Assembly: GCF_003363135.1 (NCBI RefSeq) | Contig: NZ_QRBB01000001.1 | Span: 2,082,501 to 2,146,500, forward strand | Length of the DNA stretch: 64,000 nucleotides | Direction of reading: 5' to 3' | DNA from: Alteriqipengyuania lutimaris | Lineage (GTDB): Bacteria; Pseudomonadota; Alphaproteobacteria; Sphingomonadales; Sphingomonadaceae | In this document: positions 14,098 through 24,645 of the stretch, in pieces | Layout: the number at the start of each line of letters is the position of its first letter | Numbering within the stretch: the stretch's first letter is position 1 | Translations under genes and position numbers: made by a program | Notes under the pieces: model-generated | What the model was told of the DNA's origin: nothing | Database searches by the model: none | Seen by the model: the letters and a program-made list of their open reading frames with translations, nothing else

Positions 14098-15009
14098 ATG
14101 AGTCGTTCCACCATGATCCCCAAGACCCCTGTATCTGCATCCGAGACCGCTGCCGATCTGTCATCCGCAGCGCATCTGGCTGCCGCCAATTGTGCGCGTG
14201 AGGAGCGCTGGCGACCCGGCCTGGGCGGGGTCGCGCAGACCGAGATTTTTGCCTCTTCGCGCGAGGCGAGCGGTGTGGGCGCGGCGCTGGCGCTCGCGCT
14301 CGACGCGGGGCGCAGCCGGCCTCGCGAAGAGGGAGACGAGGCGGAGGATCGCTGCGCGGTGGTCTGGGTGCAGACCCGCGCTGCGGTGAAGAGCGGGGGG
14401 CGACCGTTCCGTCCCGGCCTGCCGCCCGAGATCCGCCACCGCCTGATCCACGTGCTGGCCGAGAAGGACGAGGACGCATTGTTCGCGCTGGAAGAGGCGG
14501 TGCGGTGCCGCGATGTCGCTTTCGTGATCGGCGAACTTGCGGGCGCGGCGCGGGCGCTCGACTTCACCGCCTCGCGCCGCCTGACACTGGCGGCCGAGCG
14601 GCATGGCGTCCCGCTGACGCTGGTGCGGCTCGATGGCCCGCGCGAACTTTCCTCCGCCCGCCAGCGCTGGGCGGTGAACGCGGCGCCCTCGGCGCACCCG
14701 CGGTGGAACAAGGCGGCGCCGGGCGCTCCCGCGTGGCAGGCCGAACTGTTCCGCGCGCGAAGCCACCCGCCCGGTACATGGCGGCTGAGCGAGGATGCGG
14801 GGCAGCTGGTGGCAAGCAGGGTTGCGGAACAGTCCGCTCCCCCTGATCGCGGGGAGGGCACCTCGATCGGTCAGGCAATCGCCCGAAAATTCACACCATC
14901 CCGGAACTGCGCTCGTGCTGAGCCTGTCGAAGCACGGTCTTTCACTTTGGTGAGCACGAAGCCCAAAGAAAGTACCGCCCTTCGACAGGCTCAGGGCGAG
15001 CGGGTGTAG
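14098..15009 (+). CDS. imuA: SOS mutagenesis accessory protein ImuA, repeat-extended C-terminus
   Basis: ImuA works with ImuB and DnaE2 in damage-induced translesion synthesis. It is a RecA/SulA-fold relative without known enzymatic activity. The product is 303 aa. The recognisable core is GLGGVAQTEIFASSREASGV through RLDGPRELSSARQRWAV and ends with the TWRLSEDAGQLVASRV stretch near residue 243. Residues from about 272 to the end are encoded by a palindromic repeat (14911-15004), so the native C-terminus has been replaced or extended. The ATG is two bases after a LexA box with almost no leader. A second in-frame ATG at 14113 is possible. imuB starts two bases after the stop. Confidence 0.88.
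   Translation: MSRSTMIPKTPVSASETAADLSSAAHLAAANCAREERWRPGLGGVAQTEIFASSREASGVGAALALALDAGRSRPREEGDEAEDRCAVVWVQTRAAVKSGGRPFRPGLPPEIRHRLIHVLAEKDEDALFALEEAVRCRDVAFVIGELAGAARALDFTASRRLTLAAERHGVPLTLVRLDGPRELSSARQRWAVNAAPSAHPRWNKAAPGAPAWQAELFRARSHPPGTWRLSEDAGQLVASRVAEQSAPPDRGEGTSIGQAIARKFTPSRNCARAEPVEARSFTLVSTKPKESTALRQAQGERV
14911..15004. repeat. Palindromic repeat, GAGCCTGTCGAA type, inside the end of imuA
   Basis: The left arm, GCTCGTGCTGAGCCTGTCGA onward (14911-14935), is inverted against the right arm ending TTCGACAGGCTCAGGGCGAG (14978-15004). Inner CTTTGG (14945-14950) pairs with CCAAAG (14963-14968). The whole 94 bases can fold into one long stem-loop. A diverged copy occurs at 20874-20946. 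This copy is translated and forms the last 32 residues of ImuA. Confidence 0.8.
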
Positions 15010-19306: not shown

Positions 19307-19326
19307 GACTCTCTTCCCTCCATCCT

Positions 19327-19409
19327 CATCCCCGCGCAGGCGGGGATCCAGCTAAGGGCTGTGGCACGAGTAACTTCTGTCATCTGGACCCCCGCCTGCG
19401 CGGAGGTGA
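19327..19409. repeat. Inverted repeat pair between radical SAM gene and udgX
   Basis: CCCCGCGCAGGCGGGGATCC (from 19330) is repeated in inverted form by CTGGACCCCCGCCTGCGCGG (from 19384). The two arms are about 30 bases apart and each can also form a small hairpin of its own. It lies between the radical SAM stop and udgX, inside the likely transcript. It has no coding role. It is of the short dispersed palindrome type common in sphingomonad genomes. Confidence 0.75.
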
Positions 19410-20873: not shown

Positions 20874-20946
20874 CCGTTCGTCCTGAGCTCGTCGAAGGGC
20901 GAACGAGGTGCGGCGTTCGCGGTTCGACAGGCTCACCACGAACGGG
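20874..20946. repeat. Inverted repeat between udgX and dnaE2
   Basis: The left arm CCGTTCGTCCTGAGCTCGTC (20874-20898 with its tail) is inverted against the right arm CGGTTCGACAGGCTCACCAC (20920-20945 with its tail). This is the same GAGC-TGTCGAA core seen at the end of imuA. It starts right at the udgX stop and ends about 20 bases before the dnaE2 ATG, so it fills nearly the whole gap. Confidence 0.75.
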
Positions 20947-20964
20947 TGGGGCAGGGAAATTGTC

Positions 20965-23900
20965 ATGCCAGAAGCACCGCTCACCCCCGACAAGCGCCGG
21001 ATAGAAATCGACCCCGATGACGTCGATCCGCCGCCGCACGCGCCTTTCGTAGAACTGGGGCTTGTCTCGTGCTTCAGCTTCCTGCGTGGGTCGTCGGACG
21101 CGGTCGATCTCGTGCTGACCGCGCGCGCGCTCGGCTACGATGCGCTGGGGATTGCCGATGCCAACACGATGGCGGGGGTGGTGCGCGTGCATGCCGAGGC
21201 GAAGACGCTGAAGGTGCGCCCGGTGATCGGCTGCCGGATCGAGACGGTCGAGGGTCTCGGCTTCCTCGCCTACCCGAGGGATCGCGCGGCCTATGGCCGG
21301 TTATGCCGCCTGATCAGCCAAGGCCGAATGCAGACGCTTTCGGGCGGATGGCAAGACAAGGGCGTGTGCGAGATCGACCTCGCGATGCTCGCCGGCCATG
21401 CTGAGGATGTGCAGCTGATCCTGCTGCCGCCCGATAACCTCGATGCGCGGTTCACGATTGCGGTGCCGAGCAATGTGATCCCTTTTCGCCATCCTTCTTC
21501 GGAGCGGCAGACGGGTAGCGGGACCCAGGATGGGGTCCGGGGTGACGGCAAGGTGGAATTGACCGCGTCTTTCCCCAGCCTCATCCCACACCTTACCGCC
21601 CAGCTGCCGACCCTGCGCCACATTGCCGCCGCCTATCTCTATCGCGGCGACGATATCGCCAGGATCGACCGGCTCGACGCCATGGCGCGCGCGCACCGCC
21701 TCGCGCTGCTCGCCACCAACGACGTGCATTACCACGCGCCCGAGCGGCGTCCGCTCAATGACGTCATGACGGCAATACGCCACAAGACGACCGTCGAAGC
21801 CGCCGGCCACCTGCTCCACGCCAATGCCGAACGGCACCTCAAATCGCCGGAAGACATGGTCCGCCTGTTTGCCCGCTGGCCTCATGCAATCATGGCGTCC
21901 CGCGATATCGTCGATGCCTGCCGCTTCAGCCTCGAGGAGCTGCAATACGAGTATCCGAGGCGCGCCTATCCCGACGGCATGACCCCGCAGCAATATCTGG
22001 AGCAGCAGACGTGGGAGGGGGCAAACTGGCGCTATTCCAATGTGATACCAGATAAGGTTGAGGCCGCGCTTGAGTATGAGCTGGAGTTGATCGGCAAGCT
22101 TGATCTCGCCCCCTATTTCCTCACCATCAAGGAAATCGTCGATTTCGCCCGTAGGCAGACACCTCCTATTTTGTGTCAGGGGCGCGGCAGCGCTGCCAAT
22201 TCCGCCGTATGCTTTTGCCTCGGCATCACCAGCGTCGACCCTGCCGAGCACCAGTTATTGTTCGACCGGTTTCTTTCCGAAGAGCGCAGCGAGCCGCCCG
22301 ATATCGATGTCGATTTCGAGCATGAGCGGCGAGAGGAAGTCATCCAGCACATTTACAGTGAGTATGGACGGCACCGCGCCGGGCTGTGTGCCACCGTCAT
22401 TCACTACCGCCCGCGCATGGCGATCCGCGAGGTGGGCAAGGCAATGGGCCTGTCGGAAGACGTCACCGCGTCGCTCGCACGCACCGTATGGGGTGGATGG
22501 GGACGCGAGATCGGCGAAAAGCACGTAGGTGAAACGGGTATGGATATTGCCGATCCACACTTGAGGCGTGTCCTCACGCTAACCAGCCAAATGATTGGAA
22601 TGCCACGGCATCTTAGCCAACATGTCGGTGGTTTCATCCTCACCGATGGATTGCTGACCGAGACCGTGCCGATCGGCAATGGCGCAATGCCCGATCGCAG
22701 TTTCATCGAATGGGACAAGGACGACATCGACGATCTGGGCATCTTCAAGGTCGATGTTCTCGCGCTCGGGATGCTGACCTGCATTCGCAAGTGCCTCGAC
22801 CTGCTTGAGGACCACTACGACCGCCCGCTGACACTCGCCACCGTCCCGCAAGAGGACCCCGCGGTGTACGACATGCTGTGCAAGGGCGATTCGCTCGGGG
22901 TATTTCAGGTCGAAAGCCGCGCGCAGATGAACATGCTGCCGCGCCTGCAACCGCGCCAATTCTACGATCTGGTGGTGCAGGTCGCCATCGTGCGCCCTGG
23001 CCCGATCCAGGGCGATATGGTCCACCCCTATCTCAAGCAGCGGCGATTGGCGCGCGCGGGAAAGACCGATTTTCAGCTTCCTGCGCCCGCGCCCGAGCAT
23101 GGTCCGCCAGACGAGCTTTCCTCGATCCTCGGGCGCACTTTCGGGGTGCCGATCTTTCAGGAACAGGCGATGAAGATCGCCCTTGATGCGGCCAAATTCT
23201 CTCCGGCCGAGGCCAACCGCCTGCGCCGGGCCATGGCCACCTTCCGCAGCCGGGGAATGGTGCACGCGCACGAGGAAATGATGGTCGGGAGGATGATCGA
23301 GCGCGGCTACGACCCGGATTTCTCCCAGCGCTGCTTCGACCAGATCAAGGGTTTCGGGGAGTACGGCTTTCCAGAGAGCCACGCGGCCAGTTTCGCGCAC
23401 CTCGTCTACGTTTCCAGCTGGCTCAAATGCCACTACCCGGCGGCCTTCGCCTGCGCGCTGCTCAATTCGCAGCCGATGGGCTTCTACGCGCCCGCGCAGA
23501 TCGTGCGCGGCGCGGCCGAGCATGGCGTCACCGTGCTGCCAGCGGATGTGAACTGCTCGGACTGGGATTGTACTTTGGAGGATATTCCTCCCCCATTGGG
23601 GGAGGGGGACCACGCGAAGCGTGGTGGAGGGGCACCGTTCGGAACTGCGCCCGTGCCCCTCCACCATCCTGCGGATGGTCCCCCTCCCCGTGCCGGGGAG
23701 GATAAGGGCCGCCTCGACAGGCATATCGCGCTGCGCCTCGGCCTGCGCCAGATCGACGGCCTGCCCGAGCACGTCGCCGCTAAGCTTGTGGCGGAGCGGG
23801 TCGAGAACGGCCCCTACCGCGACGTGGCCGAATTGCGCGACCGCGCGGGCCTCTTGCCTGCGCATGTCGAGCGGCTCGCCTCTGCTGATGCCTTCCAGTC

Positions 23901-24645
23901 TTTGAACCTGCCACGGCGACAGGCGCTGTGGGACGCGCGGAGCCTGATCTCCTCGCCCGACCTGCCGCTGTTCCGCGCGGCGGACGAGCGTGACGAGGGG
24001 GCGGAAAAGGCGCGCACAGCGCTGCCTGTCATGCCGCTCAGCGAAGAGGTCGTCGCCGATTACCAGACCACGAGGCTCAGCCTGAAGGCGCATCCGATGG
24101 CGTTCCTGCGCGCCGACCTTGCACAGCGCGGCTTCGTGCGCGCCTGCGACCTGCGCGAGAGGAAGTTCCGCTCCATGGTGCAGGTCGCGGGCGTGGTACT
24201 GATCCGCCAGCGGCCGGGCAGCGCCAAGGGCGTGTGCTTCATCACGCTGGAGGACGAGACAGGGGTGGTGAACCTCGTCGTCTGGCCCGACCTCAAGGAA
24301 AAGCAGCGCAAGGTGGTGATGGGTGCGCGTCTGATGGAGGTGCGCGGGCGTGTCGAGTACGATGACGAGGTGATCCACGTGATCGCGCATCACATGACCG
24401 ACGCGACGCACCAGCTGGCCCTGCTCTCCGAAGACACGCTGAACTACCAGCTGGCGCGTGCGGACCATGTCAATTCGCCGCTGCCGTCAGGAAAGATCAA
24501 CCCGCGCGACGATCTGCGCGATGGGGCGGACGATCCGGCTCACGAAGGCGCAATCCGCCCGCGAGACCTGATCGATGAATTGCCCAACACAGGGGGCCAT
24601 CCGCGCAATGTCCGGATCATTCCCAAATCGCGCGACTTTCATTGA
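20965..24645 (+). CDS. dnaE2: Error-prone DNA polymerase DnaE2
   Basis: C-family replicative-type polymerase used for damage-induced mutagenesis with ImuA and ImuB. It has an N-terminal PHP domain, then the palm with CQGRGSAANSAVCFCLG and the catalytic PDIDVDF, the fingers with FPESHAASFAHLVY, a helix-hairpin-helix, and a C-terminal OB fold (FITLEDETGVVNLVVWP). At 1,226 aa it is clearly longer than usual (about 1,000-1,100). The excess is explained at least partly by two in-frame palindromic repeats, around residues 175-198 in the PHP region and 873-913 before the helix-hairpin-helix. The ATG at 20965 is chosen with GGGAAA upstream. The frame is intact. The next gene starts two bases later. 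Confidence 0.93.
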   Translation: MPEAPLTPDKRRIEIDPDDVDPPPHAPFVELGLVSCFSFLRGSSDAVDLVLTARALGYDALGIADANTMAGVVRVHAEAKTLKVRPVIGCRIETVEGLGFLAYPRDRAAYGRLCRLISQGRMQTLSGGWQDKGVCEIDLAMLAGHAEDVQLILLPPDNLDARFTIAVPSNVIPFRHPSSERQTGSGTQDGVRGDGKVELTASFPSLIPHLTAQLPTLRHIAAAYLYRGDDIARIDRLDAMARAHRLALLATNDVHYHAPERRPLNDVMTAIRHKTTVEAAGHLLHANAERHLKSPEDMVRLFARWPHAIMASRDIVDACRFSLEELQYEYPRRAYPDGMTPQQYLEQQTWEGANWRYSNVIPDKVEAALEYELELIGKLDLAPYFLTIKEIVDFARRQTPPILCQGRGSAANSAVCFCLGITSVDPAEHQLLFDRFLSEERSEPPDIDVDFEHERREEVIQHIYSEYGRHRAGLCATVIHYRPRMAIREVGKAMGLSEDVTASLARTVWGGWGREIGEKHVGETGMDIADPHLRRVLTLTSQMIGMPRHLSQHVGGFILTDGLLTETVPIGNGAMPDRSFIEWDKDDIDDLGIFKVDVLALGMLTCIRKCLDLLEDHYDRPLTLATVPQEDPAVYDMLCKGDSLGVFQVESRAQMNMLPRLQPRQFYDLVVQVAIVRPGPIQGDMVHPYLKQRRLARAGKTDFQLPAPAPEHGPPDELSSILGRTFGVPIFQEQAMKIALDAAKFSPAEANRLRRAMATFRSRGMVHAHEEMMVGRMIERGYDPDFSQRCFDQIKGFGEYGFPESHAASFAHLVYVSSWLKCHYPAAFACALLNSQPMGFYAPAQIVRGAAEHGVTVLPADVNCSDWDCTLEDIPPPLGEGDHAKRGGGAPFGTAPVPLHHPADGPPPRAGEDKGRLDRHIALRLGLRQIDGLPEHVAAKLVAERVENGPYRDVAELRDRAGLLPAHVERLASADAFQSLNLPRRQALWDARSLISSPDLPLFRAADERDEGAEKARTALPVMPLSEEVVADYQTTRLSLKAHPMAFLRADLAQRGFVRACDLRERKFRSMVQVAGVVLIRQRPGSAKGVCFITLEDETGVVNLVVWPDLKEKQRKVVMGARLMEVRGRVEYDDEVIHVIAHHMTDATHQLALLSEDTLNYQLARADHVNSPLPSGKINPRDDLRDGADDPAHEGAIRPRDLIDELPNTGGHPRNVRIIPKSRDFH
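21490..21560. repeat. Repeat fragment inside dnaE2, PHP region
   Basis: GGACCC (21521-21526) pairs with GGGTCC (21533-21538) over a 6-base loop, followed by GGGGTGACGG. This is the shape of a widespread short sphingomonad repeat normally found between genes. It encodes about 24 residues (ERQTGSGTQDGVRGDGK region) of low-complexity, polar sequence unlike its surroundings. The boundaries are approximate. Confidence 0.6.
23585..23702. repeat. Long palindromic element inside dnaE2 coding sequence
   Basis: About 118 bases. GGGGAGGGGGACC (23599-23611) pairs perfectly with 23677-23689, and TGGTGGAGGGGCAC (23622-23635) with 23653-23666. A separate hairpin, CCTCCCCC-ATT-GGGGGAGG (23587-23605), sits at the left edge and another GGGGAGG motif at the right. 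It adds about 40 residues rich in Pro and Gly without breaking the frame. Confidence 0.85.

Follow-up and report, generated by a model that had tools for sequence, protein, structure and literature searches.

Palindromic repeats recurrently found, and probably tolerated, in one loop of the error-prone DNA polymerase DnaE2 of Alteriqipengyuania lutimaris and its relatives

Introduction

The dnaE2 gene of Alteriqipengyuania lutimaris contains a DNA palindrome that lies in frame and is predicted to be translated together with the rest of the polymerase. This raises the question of what the element is, how it came to lie in the coding sequence of an error-prone DNA polymerase, and whether its position in the protein is a matter of survival, of targeting or of function. 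The window is the whole stretch of DNA that was analysed (64,000 nucleotides), and coordinates refer to it unless a genome and contig are named.

The kind of element is already known, since REPs in DnaE2 and truB genes and Rickettsia palindromic elements (RPE) in Pol III alpha have been printed. RPEs (Ogata 2000, 2002) are palindromic repeats of 100–150 bp, some of which lie in frame in genes, at solvent-exposed places (PMC3767692, PMC10969869). The R. japonica genome paper places RPE-4 or RPE-6 at one locus of Rickettsia Pol III alpha and leaves insertion hot spots possible (PMC3767692), and a review of MITEs finds a similar process conceivable in other prokaryotes (PMC10969869). Di Nocera et al. 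(2013) describe REPs in DnaE2 genes and in R. conorii DnaE, in truB of E. litoralis, S. alaskensis and S. maltophilia, and in recB of two Xanthomonas, where the two sites roughly coincide; REPs in the remaining genes of this category lie, by their account, at different sites. They also speculate on mutator effects of REPs (PMC3733652). An earlier note on the window had presented the insertion as not known to be described for DnaE2 of sphingomonads; palindromic repeats in DnaE2 genes had already been printed in that paper, where the species are given in a figure and in the supplement. The present repeat family, and the convergence of repeats on one loop of DnaE2, did not appear among the papers listed in searches of the open-access literature.

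The element and its host gene

The host gene is recognized by the NCBIfam model PRK05672 (1354.4 bits, cut-off 939) and by Pfam domains. Its frame is open throughout (ORF 20908–24645, likely start at 20965). The features that matter in the following, all on the + strand, are listed here.

20965..24645, +, dnaE2, error-prone DNA polymerase
21490..21549, +, second insertion-prone spot of dnaE2 (S2), here HPSSERQTGSGTQDGVRGDG, defined by congener comparison, insert scan and CGTC-REP scan
23586..23702, +, palindromic repeat element, read in frame as about residues 874–913 of DnaE2 (IPPPLGEGDHAKRGGGAPFGTAPVPLHHPADGPPPRAGED), defined by its arms, its repeat family in the genome and its frame
23587..23605, +, left terminal hairpin CCTCCCC-N5-GGGGAGG, with the same stem letters in all 10 half-units aligned
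23599..23612, +, outer 14-bp perfect arm, partner 23676–23689
23609..23625, +, inner hairpin of the left half-unit, whose sequence differs among copies
23622..23635, +, inner 14-bp perfect arm, partner 23653–23666
23636..23652, +, 17-nt spacer between the two inverted half-units, which varies among copies
23663..23679, +, inner hairpin of the right half-unit
23683..23701, +, right terminal hairpin, which as a direct repeat matches the left one at 74% identity, 96 nt (32 codons) away

The element is a 117-bp palindrome whose two 50-nt arms are 80% complementary and 17 nt apart. It had been placed at 23585..23702, which is accurate to within 1–2 nt, and said to add about 40 residues in frame without a stop; it does supply 40 residues. 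The perfect nesting of its arms was also rightly seen, except that both are 14 bp long (13 and 14 bp had been given), and the single terminal hairpin turns out to be one of two, each half having in addition an inner hairpin. Half-units conform to the pattern (A/T)TCCTCCCC-loop-GGGGAGGGGGACC-variable stem-GGTGGAGGGGC, and 33 of 49 columns are invariant among 10 half-units chosen from the same genome. The element folds as a single strand far better than its shuffled versions, both as DNA (z -5.46) and as RNA (z -6.65), none of 200 shuffles being as good in either case. Such a stem might stall replication, as the earlier note proposed. In the protein, it falls in the helix-hairpin-helix region, and the Pfam domain HHH_6 is stretched across it (854–987).

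The element contains no stop in any of the six frames, where 300 dinucleotide shuffles contain 4.11 on average (P 0.053), which is barely beyond what base composition gives. Since the same P ranges from 0.013 to 0.89 in 11 other inserts, we dropped the idea that openness of the frames is a special adaptation of the element. A search of Rfam gave no meaningful match to the element (three hits, all far under the gathering scores), and no NCBIfam model was found for the inserted peptide.

A multi-copy repeat family

In what follows, G000 is the genome of A. lutimaris, G001 to G009 are its congeners, L-numbers designate other loci, and R1 is a covariance model of the half-unit of the element. A BLAST search of G000 with the element gives 46 matches at E<=10, counting weak ones and those on either strand. 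R1 finds at least 25 half-unit matches at E<=0.01, which group into at least 17 sites; these numbers are lower bounds, 150 of 5613 first-look candidates having been scored. Over 49 nt, the right half of the dnaE2 copy has the same sequence as a half-unit in truB of G000. R1 matches are present in nine of the ten genomes of the genus, that of A. lutimaris included, and there are none in G009 among the matches listed; under stricter filters, R1 occurs at E<=1e-6 in 75 of 149 genomes and 52 of 96 genera of the wider family.

Open frames were inspected at 13 of the 17 sites in G000, and three of them lie in frame inside conserved genes, namely dnaE2, truB and bchB, each copy having conserved protein flanks on both sides. 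Several of the other ten sites are intergenic by eye. Some of these presumably lie before pgk and before bchZ, the genes being named from the starts of their proteins. The two other copies inside genes are the following.

G000:C2:68360-68500 (locus L004), element in frame in TruB (TIGR00431)
G000:C1:1259954-1260000 (locus L013), half-unit in frame in BchB (TIGR01278)

Other copies, which the earlier note proposed to look for across the genome, do exist, and some of them sit in genes. The reading of the element as a repeated palindrome translated in frame, resembling those of Rickettsia, is borne out: it is a multi-copy palindrome in the range of about 100–150 bp, in frame in dnaE2, truB and bchB, and homologues that lack it are known for dnaE2 and truB. 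BchB of G000 contains a second repeat-like stretch further on (HAELVSAS...QVQGDD).

In TruB, the stretches that match PDB structures (36–194 and 262–381) flank most of the insert. The same loop carries an insert in eight of the nine genomes of the genus that were read (G008 was left out), and none in G009. These inserts resemble four repeat types, by eye, copy number having been checked for R1 alone: that of R1 in G000 and G006, a second one in G001 and G002, HAELVSAS in G003, G004 and G005, and RPEPVEG in G007. A stop in the G006 match is upstream of the likely start of the protein and outside the insert. Repeats turn over in the TruB loop as they do in the DnaE2 loop, which is described next.

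The same spot of DnaE2 in the genus

We compared the spot between WDCTLE and ALRLGL of DnaE2 (hereafter S1) in the ten genomes of the genus. The present element occurs there in G000 alone. G009 has KVDGAV only and no insert, G007 has QRGEADEAKQGRLDRH, and G004, G005 and G006 have a different insert of about 45 residues. A peptide that corresponds to a single hairpin is found exactly in G002 and G003 and, in a diverged form, in G001 and G008. The homologues do differ in presence and absence at exactly the same spot, which is what the alignment proposed in the earlier note was meant to reveal.

In G002 and G003, the stretch ATT CCT CCC CGT GCC GGG GAG GAT AAG resembles the right terminal hairpin of the G000 element preceded by the left edge of that element. 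The terminal hairpins are direct repeats 96 nt (32 codons) apart, and therefore slippage between them would leave an in-frame scar like that of G002 and G003. The single-hairpin peptides of these two genomes may thus be what is left after loss of an element by slippage, although the order of events may also have been the reverse. In a tree of the dnaE2 core, G000 groups with G004 and G005, with a bootstrap of 71% only.

The paralogue DnaE1 has no insert at the equivalent hairpin (ERTDEGYAVRYGL) in any of the ten genomes; eight were read across the turn, and G000 and G005 were assessed from the unchanged distance to the motif GPGRGSGAGS.

The same spot across Alphaproteobacteria

The alignment was extended to the best 80 of at least 583 named DnaE2 loci, together with the ten genomes of the genus; L081, L091 and L120, which are wrong-frame ORFs, were left out, which gives 87 sequences. 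Inserts of at least 18 residues were collected, protein ends excluded, and their RNA folding was compared to 50 shuffles each. At S1 (reference position 868) there are 17 inserts, 14 of which have z<=-2.9 (G005, L110 and L122 are above this cut-off). Two other length-variable sites, with nine inserts at position 87 and 20 at positions 1126–1130, have none that is palindromic, the lowest z being -1.6. The difference (14/17 against 0/29) gives a Fisher p of 3e-9, which is descriptive, the cut-off having been set after the values were seen and the rows being related. S2, near positions 163–170, is the second spot, where 14 of 35 inserts have z<=-2.9, and lone inserts with such values occur at positions 104, 127 and 896. 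Background tiles from seven of these dnaE2 genes have a mean z of -0.2 (sd 1.45, n=60, lowest -6.7), tiles that overlap inserts being included. The DnaE2 of Erythrobacter sp. EC-HK427 (L072) has palindromic inserts of about 90 residues at both hot spots.

All seven S1 inserts used as queries, out of 17, are multi-copy in their own genomes. The counts that follow take in the query site and both strands of the palindromes, at E<=0.001 (E<=10 in the case of G000): 25 matches for the insert of Novosphingobium aquimarinum (L104), relatives of which in G004, G005 and G006 have 5, 13 and 23, 24 for Erythrobacter (L072), 60 for Caulobacter (L101), 72 for L099 (titled Roseomonas), 24 for Reyranella (L103) and 68 for an uncultured Erythrobacter (L062). 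Among 15 insert DNAs, similarity joins G004, G005, G006 and L104, as well as L066 and L072, and, through 21-nt stretches, L099 and L103; L095 is weakly linked to G006 and L104 through a 17-nt stretch. By DNA similarity there are about ten groups of inserts at S1, six of which were tested for copy number. Neither A. lutimaris nor its element is unique in this respect: several repeat groups use the same loop.

R1 gives 22 matches at E<=0.1 in 17 DnaE2 loci; they are strong in L085 alone, where the pair lies outside dnaE2. We speak of groups rather than of unrelated families because R1 also matches weakly (E 0.001–0.1) inside the dnaE2 inserts of L095, L101, L103, L118 and L099. A distant relationship of some groups to the G000 family may underlie these matches, or the likeness may be merely that of GC-rich hairpins.

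The first alternative that these data bear on is the null of the earlier note, according to which the insert is simply a loop of the DnaE2 family whose DNA happens to be GC-rich and self-complementary. The loop is indeed length-variable in many alphaproteobacteria, as such a reading would have it. This null is refuted, and we regard it as hardly conceivable, because copies of the repeat exist elsewhere in the genome, one half being identical over 49 nt, and because the relatives have inserts that differ in sequence or, like G009, none; the homologues do not all share one loop with non-palindromic DNA.

Structure of the loop and evolutionary rates

An AlphaFold2 model of residues 642–1226 of DnaE2, calculated with 28 sequences, is of moderate quality (mean pLDDT 70.9, pTM 0.64). 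The strands TLED (229–232 of the model) and IALR (280–283) flank a segment with pLDDT<50 (240–272), which makes up most of the insert (233–272). The insert is predicted to be mostly disordered; a likely surface loop had been proposed from the sequence. The two flanking strands would pair as a hairpin, and the insert most likely sits at its tip, on the surface of DnaE2. The best Foldseek matches of the model are structures of bacterial Pol III alpha; the sequence match with E. coli Pol III alpha breaks off near residue 821 of the latter, immediately ahead of the spot, and in one chain picks up again beyond it.

Rates of evolution were obtained for the inserts common to G004, G005 and G006, that is, for three related species that carry another repeat group than that of G000, and the three pairs share branches. 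Their pN/pS is 0.93, compared to 0.19 for the core in the same three pairs. At S2, the values are 0.87 and 0.11 (four pairs). The C-terminal tail of DnaE2, which has no palindromic insert, has a pN/pS of 0.15–0.28. The orthologous inserts of this other repeat group evolve near-neutrally; the G000 copy has no full-length orthologue among these genomes. In the G004/G005 pair alone, the insert has 13 nonsynonymous and 2 synonymous changes (Fisher test against the core, p 5e-7), which could also reflect weak positive selection.

Survival, targeting or function

We argue that palindromic repeats repeatedly land in one loop of DnaE2 and are tolerated there, which we consider likely. In this mechanism, a multi-copy, non-autonomous palindromic repeat made of two inverted half-units, akin to BIMEs and RPEs, would have inserted into dnaE2 without shifting its frame, at a point that lies between two short strands of the protein and just ahead of the helix-hairpin-helix domain. 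Such insertions would survive in this loop because they add a disordered peptide under almost no constraint; purifying selection acts on the remainder of the polymerase. Different repeat groups would visit the same loop over time, and elements would be lost again, presumably by slippage, leaving short in-frame remnants. The hot spot would then arise from survival through tolerance rather than from targeting.

In a second mechanism, insertion would be directed to the spot, either by a mobilising enzyme or by the way dnaE2 is structured or transcribed during damage. The presence of several repeat groups at one spot would be expected in that case too, and S2 of dnaE2 and one loop of TruB are further sites of repeated insertion. 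On the other hand, the groups are unlike in sequence, and their mobilisers may differ accordingly; no consistent target duplication is seen by eye. The C-terminal tail is length-variable as well, but it is constrained (see the rates above) and its 20 inserts are non-palindromic, as expected if survival decides. We consider targeting unlikely.

In a third mechanism, the inserted peptides alter DnaE2 (its processivity, the binding of partners or mutagenesis) and are kept by selection. This would agree with the mutator effect speculated by Di Nocera et al., in whose paper repeats recur in replication and repair genes (PMC3733652), and positive selection would give an excess of nonsynonymous changes such as that of the G004/G005 pair. 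The near-neutral ratio over the three pairs that share an insert argues against it, as does the fact that both the sequences and the groups differ among close relatives, so that co-option appears very unlikely.

A broader proposal is that the loop is a landing pad on the scale of the class, which at least six multi-copy repeat groups (about ten by DNA similarity) would have entered independently, in the same codon neighbourhood, across Alphaproteobacteria, as a result of active targeting or of a selected effect on damage-induced mutagenesis and not of mere tolerance. We find this doubtful.

Relation to known repeats

Like RPEs, the element is a multi-copy palindromic repeat of about 100–150 bp that lies in frame within genes for conserved proteins; unlike them, it occurs in another lineage, its host is DnaE2 and not DnaE, and it consists of two inverted half-units with two hairpins each. 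The likeness drawn here is one of kind. With BIMEs and MITEs, it shares inverted repeat ends, multiple copies and the lack of a transposase of its own; it differs from them in that no RAYT gene was found in G000 and no target-site duplication was recognised by eye, none being consistent among the copies compared. The RAYT domain PF01797 (Y1_Tnp) has no match in G000, while 5 of 14 control genomes match, and a RAYT encoded in G000 was rejected as the mobiliser of the element.

The CGTC and GTAG REPs are also small palindromes, often inverted dimers, and they too are reported in DnaE2 genes and truB (PMC3733652). In contrast with CGTC REPs, the stem signature CGTC is missing from the S1 element. 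A scan for a CGTC, TGTC or CCTC tag followed by a stem of 8–9 bp and a loop of 4–5 nt, one mismatch allowed, gave no hit in S1 of G000, G004 and G006, nor in S2 of G008, and the S1 element of G000 was rejected as a CGTC REP. The scan gave hits in S2 of G000, G001 and G004, the stem starting with AT in G001 and G004 only; these two congeners have CGTC-REP-like stems at S2, and HPSSERQTGSGTQDGVRGDG in G000 may be a decayed repeat. A further difference from the REPs of Di Nocera et al. is that several repeat groups share one loop of DnaE2, the one shared site given in the text of that paper being in recB (PMC3733652).

With this newly seen repeat family, free-living Alphaproteobacteria join the record of protein-coding palindromic elements, and the re-use of one loop of an error-prone polymerase by several repeat groups is seen here with internal controls. 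The inserts are natural replicates for asking if such peptides are carried along neutrally or affect mutagenesis, as was suggested to be possible in 2013 (PMC3733652). They are also a warning for annotation: these residues are derived from a repeat and are not a feature of DnaE2.

Other repeat-like stretches around the element

The window contains other repeat-like stretches. Between a UDG-like ORF and dnaE2, the stretch 20879–20950, which we take to be of the RPELVEG / VSLSN type, provides a GTG start codon in frame and upstream of where dnaE2 probably starts. In the congener G001, the dnaE2 match is preceded, at a distance of 4 nt, by the end of an R1 element pair. At the border of two ORFs, positions 19326–19409 form an imperfect inverted repeat with 26-nt arms (88%), presumably of the WIPACAG-peptide type. 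Last, the inverted repeat at 14910–15002 has 29-nt arms that are 86% complementary and is of the CTGAGCCTGTCGAAG type.
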